A stretch of 64,000 nt of DNA from Acidobacteriota bacterium (GTDB lineage: Bacteria > Acidobacteriota > Terriglobia > Acidiferrales > UBA7541): the NCBI GenBank assembly GCA_013289695.1, contig JABCZK010000005.1:1-64000 (forward strand), read 5' to 3'. Under the pieces are notes generated by a model that ran no database searches, was not told the DNA's origin, and was given only the letters and a program-made list of their open reading frames with translations. Position numbers and translations under genes: made by a program. Positions within the stretch are counted from its first letter, which is position 1, and each line of letters starts with the position of its first letter. This document shows positions 3,912 to 31,992 of the stretch, piece after piece.

Positions 3912-4201
3912 AGTTTATCCCGCTCTGTTAACGACGTAGGGGCTTGGCGGCGGGGAAATCGCCACGAGCGACTGCGTGGCAGCTGCAACTGCTGTGTCGC
4001 GCCTACGGCGCTTCCGATTCTCTTCGCGATTTTTCCCAGGCCTTCCGGCCTGGGCTAACTTGTGCCGCGCCCACGGCGCTGGACCGTGTGCCGGCGGTGC
4101 CAGTGCAGAGCGGATCGGATCGGACGCGGCAAGTAAGGCAAAGGCGCACGGGTGAAAAGCAGGTGGCCGCTACAAAATCAACTGCACACAGCAAGCAGCG
4201 T

Positions 4202-30860: not shown

Positions 30861-31724
30861 CTAGTGCGCGGCGACGGCGACTTCCTTTTCGATGGGTGCG
30901 CCGACGAGATTGCCCCACTCGGTCCAGGAGCCGTCGTAATTCTTCACGTTGCCGAAGCCCAGCAAATACTTCAGCACGAACCAGGTGTGCGAGCTGCGTT
31001 CGCCGATGCGGCAGTAGGCGATCACTTCTTCCGCGCCGTCAATTCCCTTCTTGCCGTATAGCTCCTTCAGCGCATCCGCGGATTTGAAAGTGCCGTCTTC
31101 GTTGGCGGCCTGCGCCCAGGGAATACTGGCCGCGCCCGGAATGTGGCCCGCACGCTGCGCGGTTTCGGAAAGTCCCGGAGGCGCGAGAATCTTTCCGGTG
31201 AATTCGTCCACGGAGCGAACGTCCACCAGTTGCGCGGCCTTCTTCTTATCGAGGAAGGCGTAAACATCTTCCTTGCGGGCGCGGATGGATTCGTCGGGGC
31301 CGGTGGCGTGATAGGTGGCGGCGGTTATTTTCGGCGCGTCGGTGGTGAGCGGGCGCTTTTCCTCTACCCACTTCTTGCGGCCGCCGTTGATCAGGCGCAC
31401 ATCCTTGTGGCCGTAGTACTTCACTTGCCAGAAGGCGTAGGCGGCGAACCAGTTGTTGTTGTCGCCGTAGAACAGGATGATGGTGTCGTTGGAAATTCCG
31501 GACGCGCCAAGCAGTTTTTCCAGCGCGGGCTTGTCAATCAGGTCGCGGCGAATATTGTCTTGCAGCTGCGATTGCCAGTTCCAGCCCACGGCGCCGGGAA
31601 TGTGACCCTGGTCGTAGGCGGTGGTGTCCACGTCCACCTCGACCAGGCGGACTTTCGGATCGTTCAGATGGTCGGCGGCCCACTGGGTGGTCACCAGAAC
31701 TTCAGGGTGCTTGTAGTCAGTCAT
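30861..31724 (-). CDS. CysA2-like thiosulfate sulfurtransferase (rhodanese)
   Basis: NNNWFAAYAFWQVKYYGHKDVRLINGGRKKW; YCRIGERSSHTWFVL active-site loop; VKNYDGSWTEWGNLVGAPIE; GAGGAG SD. Confidence 0.96.
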   Translation of the reverse strand: MTDYKHPEVLVTTQWAADHLNDPKVRLVEVDVDTTAYDQGHIPGAVGWNWQSQLQDNIRRDLIDKPALEKLLGASGISNDTIILFYGDNNNWFAAYAFWQVKYYGHKDVRLINGGRKKWVEEKRPLTTDAPKITAATYHATGPDESIRARKEDVYAFLDKKKAAQLVDVRSVDEFTGKILAPPGLSETAQRAGHIPGAASIPWAQAANEDGTFKSADALKELYGKKGIDGAEEVIAYCRIGERSSHTWFVLKYLLGFGNVKNYDGSWTEWGNLVGAPIEKEVAVAAH

Positions 31725-31800
31725 TGGCTGTCTCCTCGTTGTTAGTCATTCTTCGTAATTAGACGCTCGCTATCGGAACCGTTGCAAAAATCCGGGCATA

Positions 31801-31842
31801 AAACAAAAAACCCACCTGCCTTGGGTACTTCCGGCGGTGGGT
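31801..31842 (-). terminator. Intrinsic terminator between the Cys-rich leader ORF and the rhodanese CDS
   Basis: Minus strand ACCCACCGCC-GGAAGTACCCAA-GGCAGGTGGGT then TTTTTTGTTTT; about 77 nt upstream of the rhodanese start. Confidence 0.8.
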
Positions 31843-31870
31843 CGGGAATTTCTGGGCTAGTTTGCGGTAC

Positions 31871-31957
31871 TTAGCTGCCTAGCCTCCCTGCGCCAGAAGA
31901 CACGTCTGCGCAAAACATACAACAACAGCAAGCGCAGCACTGGCAGCAGATTTGCAT
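31871..31957 (-). CDS. Poly-cysteine leader peptide MQICCQCCACCCCMFCADVSSGAGRLGS
   Basis: ATG at 31957..31955, TAA at 31873..31871; 9 Cys in 28 residues; upstream of rhodanese, same strand; too short for the ORF track. Confidence 0.65.
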   Translation of the reverse strand: MQICCQCCACCCCMFCADVSSGAGRLGS

Positions 31958-31963
31958 GAACTG

Positions 31964-31992
31964 AGGTTACACCTGAACCGCGGGCATGGCAA
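31964..31992 (-). promoter_or_regulatory. Candidate promoter for the leader ORF: TTGCCA-17 nt-TAACCT
   Basis: -10 ends 6 nt before the leader ATG, implying a leaderless transcript. Confidence 0.45.

Follow-up and report, generated by a model that had tools for sequence, protein, structure and literature searches.

Transcription attenuators of the trp type, known from the trp, his and thr leaders of Proteobacteria, share with the element described here a leader rich in the amino acid that is the end product, mutually exclusive 1:2, 2:3 and 3:4 helices, and an intrinsic terminator before the first gene. A second group, in mycobacteria, is formed by leaderless polycysteine short open reading frames (sORFs; Canestrari et al. 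2020, as related in PMC9031893, PMC9094748 and PMC13236596). These mycobacterial sORFs have a leaderless start, as is predicted for our element, and resemble it in their contiguous Cys codons before sulfur or cysteine genes, and the same proposal is made, that the elongating ribosome senses the cysteine supply. Cysteine leaders lacking a terminator have also been predicted in Actinobacteria; no terminator hairpin is conserved upstream of the mycobacterial genes concerned (PMC1262725). In the Rhodobacterales, the uORFC-8-2 motif, consisting of a Cys uORF and a terminator, has been predicted before cysS (PMC8632094); in common with the present element it has a uORF with Cys codons, followed by an intrinsic terminator, and transcription attenuation is the predicted outcome. 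The element analysed here, located before a sulfurtransferase gene, is very probably a transcription attenuator of the ribosome-mediated kind, with charged tRNA-Cys as its signal. A search of the open-licence literature found no report of it in Acidobacteriota.

The leader, its predicted promoter and the sulfurtransferase gene

The window, a stretch of 64,000 nucleotides, is part of a 4.5-Mb MAG of an uncultured Acidobacteriota; the closest relatives that bear a name are also Acidobacteriota, Candidatus Acidiferrales among them. On the minus strand of the window, a Cys-rich leader ORF of 28 codons, nine of them for cysteine (MQICCQCCACCCCMFCADVSSGAGRLGS and a stop codon, 31871..31957), comes first, then an intrinsic terminator (31841..31805) and, after another 80 nt, the gene for a two-domain rhodanese of the thiosulfate sulfurtransferase type (30861..31724, active-site loop CRIGERS). 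The product of 287 amino acids matches the Pfam Rhodanese family, and among solved structures it is closest to a rhodanese, 1uar, and to two thiosulfate sulfurtransferases, 3aax and 3hwi; its score with the NCBIfam model for 3-mercaptopyruvate sulfurtransferase is under the cut-off. The Shine-Dalgarno sequence of the gene, GAGGAG, can be read directly at 31732..31737, 67 nt past the terminator U-tract. Elsewhere in the window, an Acido-Lenti-1 RNA, a known RNA family (Rfam RF01687, 49.2 bits), is located at 4035..4080 on the plus strand.

The leader is preceded by a predicted promoter, with a -35 box TTGCCA (31987..31992, minus strand) placed by the conserved promoter pattern and a -10 box TAACCT (31964..31969) placed by the conserved spacing, the latter separated from the leader AUG by 6 nt. 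The pattern TTGNNN-N17/18-TANNNT precedes the leader AUG in 35 of 36 related loci, at a distance of 6-10 nt; this gap is 6 nt in 19 of the 35 and 7 nt in 9. In one of them only does the interval from the -10 box to the AUG include a stretch that is rich in purines and resembles a Shine-Dalgarno sequence. From this ordinary promoter geometry we infer that the leader AUG is at, or adjoins, the start of the transcript and that the leader ORF is leaderless or nearly so.

When 95 genomes of the order were searched for the sulfurtransferase, the gene was present in 63. The 36 loci in which a Cys-rich leader and CCCACCGCCAGAA...GGUGGGUUUUUU come ahead of it belong to four genera within one family, and across these loci the Cys-rich leader, segment 2 (of the CUUCUGGCG type, described below), the terminator and the promoter are all kept. 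Many orthologues in the family's other genera have neither the Cys leader nor CCCACCGCCAGAA...GGUGGGUUUUUU. Among 80 sulfurtransferase relatives scanned in GTDB genomes, Cys-rich leaders are confined to close acidobacterial relatives, with the exception of one locus (L066) in the Chloroflexi MAG CFX5, where a Cys-rich ORF of different sequence (MVNLSPTTSQMMACMCCMCGYFCVDRRLGQ) lies before a sulfurtransferase, at -277 to -184 from the match start. In three loci of family f3 (L022, L023 and L026), the sulfurtransferase is preceded by Cys-rich uORFs whose end forms a strong GC hairpin, located about 70 nt ahead of the start codon and lacking a U-tract; uORF and hairpin together are possibly a translational version.

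Pairing segments and their covariation

Four segments can be distinguished in the minus-strand RNA. Segment 1 (CUGCUGCCAG, 31940..31949) comes immediately ahead of the main series of Cys codons. Segment 2 (31886..31899) is made up of the 5' arm of the antiterminator, CUUCUGGCG (31899..31891, leader codons 20-23), and a GGG clamp (31888..31886). Segment 3 (CCCACCGCCGGAAG, 31828..31841) forms the 5' arm and loop of the terminator and, alternatively, the 3' arm of the antiterminator, while segment 4 (GGCAGGUGGG, 31811..31820) forms the 3' arm of the terminator; segments 2 and 3 are placed by sequence and covariation, segment 4 by its sequence. The terminator stem consists of CCCACC/GGUGGG plus GCC/GGC and is followed by six U (31805..31810). 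The sequence-only reading had claimed a 9-bp pairing with one U-G between segments 2 and 3, and inside it a perfect 6-bp stem. Both are exact: CUUCUGGCG pairs with CGCCGGAAG (31836..31828), and GGCUAG (31879..31884) with CUAGCC (31855..31860).

The 2:3 pairing covaries among relatives. Over the 36 loci, the 2:3 helix scores 19.9 on average, compared to 13.2±0.5 for shuffled sequences, segments 2 and 3 are paired in 86% of cells and 14 cells are compensated, compared to 6.3±1.9 shuffled (0/500), in tests of a kind that kinship among the sequences can inflate. In 80 loci that match a covariance model (R1, see below), in an alignment that was fitted to the 2:3 structure and leans towards it, two-sided change is found in 8 of 12 pairs, with 44 compensated cells where shuffles give 16.2±3.1 (0/500) and a covariation score of 0.146 against 0.077±0.006, every slid register being far lower. 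In a model-free comparison, the best 2:3 helix averages 19.6 among 43 held-out loci, and 16.5±0.4 when the partners are swapped. Individual loci illustrate the change: in L118 and L153, segments 2 and 3 have changed together (UUUGGC/GCCAAA), with segment 3 in the terminator loop, and the pair is GUCGUC/GACGAC in L191, UUCGCUUUCGGCG/CGCCGGAAGCGAA in L209 and GUCCGGCUG/CAGCCGGAU in L228. The terminator stem itself offers no covariation, because its positions are almost invariant. The check for which homologous leaders had been suggested thus finds the 2:3 pairing conserved and covarying, and the proposal of an antiterminator exclusive with the terminator is backed by this conservation and two-sided change, by the spacing and by the sulfur-gene targets (see below).

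These results also bear on the least unlikely of the rival readings, translational attenuation of the mycobacterial kind, in which the ribosome on the leader would gate the downstream Shine-Dalgarno sequence. Mycobacterial leaderless Cys-rich ORFs are indeed described as acting on downstream translation (PMC9031893, PMC13236596). At our loci, however, an intrinsic terminator with a U-tract is conserved between leader and gene in 36 of 36 cases, and the covarying alternative helix overlaps this terminator and not the Shine-Dalgarno sequence 67 nt past the U-tract, so we consider a translational mechanism very improbable.

Segment 1 did not figure in the sequence-only reading. In the window it can pair with segment 2 over 9 bp with one bulged C, in the register CUG-C-UGCCAG with CUGGCGCAG, as read by eye; the minimum-energy duplex may sit in another register, and an ungapped scan chose a different short helix. 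With several registers possible, the 1:2 pairing of the window's own copy is less certain than that of the family. In relatives the pairing covaries, with 16 compensated cells compared to 7.7±3.1 shuffled (0/500), and the duplex energy is -16.7 against -14.1±0.4 with partners swapped in the 36 loci, and -16.1 against -13.5±0.4 in the other loci. The pair is CCAGAAGA/UCUUCUGG in one genus and CCAGAGG/CCUCUGG in another, UGCCAGAGC/GCUCUGGCG in L014, GCCGGAAC/GUUCUGGC in L132 and CCAGAUG/CGUCUGG in L122. A covarying 1:2 pairing before the Cys codons makes the element a full 1:2/2:3/3:4 attenuator in its predicted layout, with segment 1 as the putative protector arm that supplies the off state.

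The nested stem, although exact in the window, has modest support elsewhere. Its helix score is 14.6, compared to 13.0±0.4 for shuffled sequences (none of 200 shuffles reaches 14.6), and it was assessed in this way because the folding energy of the linker shows no clear separation from shuffles (-11.1 against -10.5±0.4). GGCUAG/CUAGCC is common to some close relatives and GAGGCUG/CAGCCUC is found in the sister genus, while several loci do not have the stem.

The proposed switch, ribosome position and folding energies

From the pairings, their conservation and covariation, and the spacing, all of which are read from the sequences, we infer translation of the leader, the start of transcription, the switch and its response to cysteine as follows. 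The transcript would start at or adjoining the leader AUG, with segments 1 and 2 closely flanking the main Cys run on its upstream and downstream sides, respectively, and segments 3 and 4 as the intrinsic terminator. When Cys-tRNA is scarce, the ribosome would stall on the Cys codons between segments 1 and 2 and block the 1:2 helix; segment 2, left free, would capture segment 3 during transcription, the terminator would not form and the sulfurtransferase gene would be transcribed. When Cys-tRNA is ample, the ribosome would reach the stop codon, and segment 2 would be taken by segment 1 behind it, crowded by the ribosome sitting at the stop codon over the GGG clamp and the nested stem, or both. 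With segment 2 occupied, the 3:4 helix would form and transcription would end.

The distance from the last Cys codon to the start of segment 2 is most commonly 10 nt (31 of 79 loci), the next most common values being 4 and 13 nt, and the distance from the end of segment 2 to the stop codon is 17 nt in 45 of the 79. Counted from the first base of the P site, a ribosome covers about 16 nt in the downstream and about 14 nt in the upstream direction. Taken with the spacing, this means that a ribosome whose A site is occupied by the last Cys codon would just clear segment 2, and that a ribosome at the stop codon would just have released it. The modal 10-nt spacing is therefore consistent with the earlier proposal that a ribosome stalled on the Cys codons leaves segment 2 free. 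Its counterpart, that the ribosome at the stop codon covers the nested stem, holds for that stem and for the GGG clamp, but by standard footprints the core of segment 2 is uncovered. Termination at high cysteine would thus probably come about by the 1:2 helix re-forming or by steric hindrance, and the spacing between segment 2 and the stop codon suggests that the off state is 1:2 re-pairing behind the finishing ribosome.

In the window, the terminator form has an energy of -37.7 kcal/mol and the antiterminator form one of -34.0 kcal/mol. Dominance of the terminator had been named beforehand as a point that could count against the switch; the terminator is favoured, by these 3.7 kcal/mol, but when its 3' arm is taken away the RNA adopts the antiterminator fold. 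As full-length RNA, 30 of the 36 loci favour the terminator, with a mean margin of about 6 kcal/mol, from which it follows that the switch would have to be kinetic. A calculation of folding at equilibrium alone, with ribosomes entered as masks, reproduces the switch for the family mean: nascent RNA has a 2:3 helix probability of 0.85 when a ribosome is at the last Cys codon, 0.57 when there is none and 0.18 when one is at the stop codon. For the window's own copy it fails to do so. There, by the same equilibrium calculation, whichever ribosome state is imposed, the 2:3 helix prevails in nascent RNA (0.96-1.0) and the terminator prevails in full-length RNA; this lack of response to the masks is a real weakness, which concerns the simple calculation for this copy.

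Related elements across the class and comparison with known systems

A covariance model (R1) that extends from segment 2 to the U-tract only, with the Cys codons excluded, has matches in 73 of the order's 95 genomes and, at the level of the class, in 101 of the 300 genomes that were sampled. In a sample of the phylum, with E up to 1e-6, matches are found in 4 of 199 genomes, all of the same class. Of the 22 codons that precede segment 2, at least 3 are for cysteine in 36 of the 43 held-out loci; the background is 8.3%. The genes behind the held-out sites include cysD, nitrite/sulfite reductases and the siroheme synthase CysG, as well as a sulfate-binding protein, TauE and single-domain rhodaneses. 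The window's own genome contains a second site (G000:C38:19291..19388, minus strand; L189, L233), with the leader MLNCCQMRCCPCACCACCMARQSGDRRFGT, which precedes a sulfite/nitrite reductase and then siroheme-synthesis genes. A weak R1 match in the same genome (G000:C3:103531, E 0.32) was rejected, as no leader was seen on inspection. Sensing through Cys codons, as first proposed from the window, thus draws on conservation, covariation, ribosome-compatible spacing and this set of sulfur-gene targets, from which a response to cysteine would follow, and the class appears to use a leaderless cysteine attenuation regulon before many sulfur-assimilation genes. Attenuators with Cys leaders are also found before six genes without an evident sulfur role (L197, L202, L208, L215, L221 and L222), which encode a PQQ-type dehydrogenase, OMPP1/FadL, a large outer-membrane barrel, a porin and HbpS-like haem-binding proteins; these genes perhaps serve the uptake or use of sulfur compounds.

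Six sites before aspartokinase genes (L198, L199, L200, L209, L224 and L225) have the same terminator/antiterminator core, with Thr/Ile-rich leaders that contain 7-9 Thr codons (the background for at least 7 is 0.16%). An example of such a leader is ATTTIITTTITTTGASGEG, and the site lies at 389-480 in L199 and at 410-504 in L200. The aspartokinase leaders are reminiscent of the thr leader of E. coli, and they suggest that the cassette can exchange its amino-acid specificity, with a Thr version before aspartokinase. It is conceivable, although we hold this tentatively and lean somewhat the other way, that one inherited cassette serves the class as a main cysteine-sensing regulon, its core kept and copied before new genes, its leader codons exchangeable between Cys, ahead of sulfur genes, and Thr, ahead of aspartokinase, and its off state given by 1:2 re-pairing behind the ribosome at the stop codon.

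An antiterminator and terminator before sulfur genes would also be the appearance of a riboswitch binding a metabolite or tRNA, be it an unknown cysteine riboswitch or a T-box, to which the ORF would be incidental. We regard this as very unlikely: the Rfam covariance models, including those for T-boxes and riboswitches, give no match within the element, the Cys run is kept while the sequences of the segments drift, its codons become Thr codons before aspartokinase, and the spacing to the Cys codons and to the stop codon suits a ribosome. Just as unlikely is a Cys-rich peptide that acts in trans, by metal or thiol chemistry, next to a hairpin that is a plain terminator. Small Cys-rich peptides can bind metals and the Cys run is conserved, but outside this run the peptide tracks the RNA pairing segments and otherwise drifts, and compensatory nucleotide changes preserve the helices. 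Chance pairing close to an ordinary terminator is the least probable of all, given the conservation, the class-wide R1 matches and a covariation that exceeds shuffled and swapped controls, even if the whole-leader fold energy, uninformative as a total, is no better than that of shuffles (z-score 0.08).

Judged by the defining features that can be tested in a sequence, the element would work like a trp-type attenuator: a run of regulatory codons lies in a short leader, there is a terminator with an exclusive antiterminator, the codons are placed in a way compatible with stalling, and the family has the protector 1:2 helix, of which the window contains a weaker version with a bulge. The element differs from the trp type in that it is cysteine-specific, has an ORF predicted to be leaderless and belongs to a sulfur-gene set within one class. 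The stop codon is located about 17 nt after segment 2, which is coding and would be just behind a ribosome at the stop; trpL is not known to have its stop placed in this way relative to segment 2. The uORFC-8-2 motif, compared by its description only, has two tandem Cys codons inside the first stem and a single gene, cysS, in alphaproteobacteria, whereas the present element has 3-10 Cys codons before many sulfur genes in Acidobacteriota, with nine and a rhodanese gene in the window. The mycobacterial sORFs are described as acting through translation attenuation (PMC9031893, PMC13236596), while here a terminator is accompanied by a covarying antiterminator; translational control with no conserved terminator does not describe our loci, in which the intrinsic terminator is conserved. 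What emerges is a probable cysteine regulon, open to direct testing because its helices, spacing and targets are defined, whose element would unite a leaderless polycysteine leader of the mycobacterial type with a textbook terminator switch.
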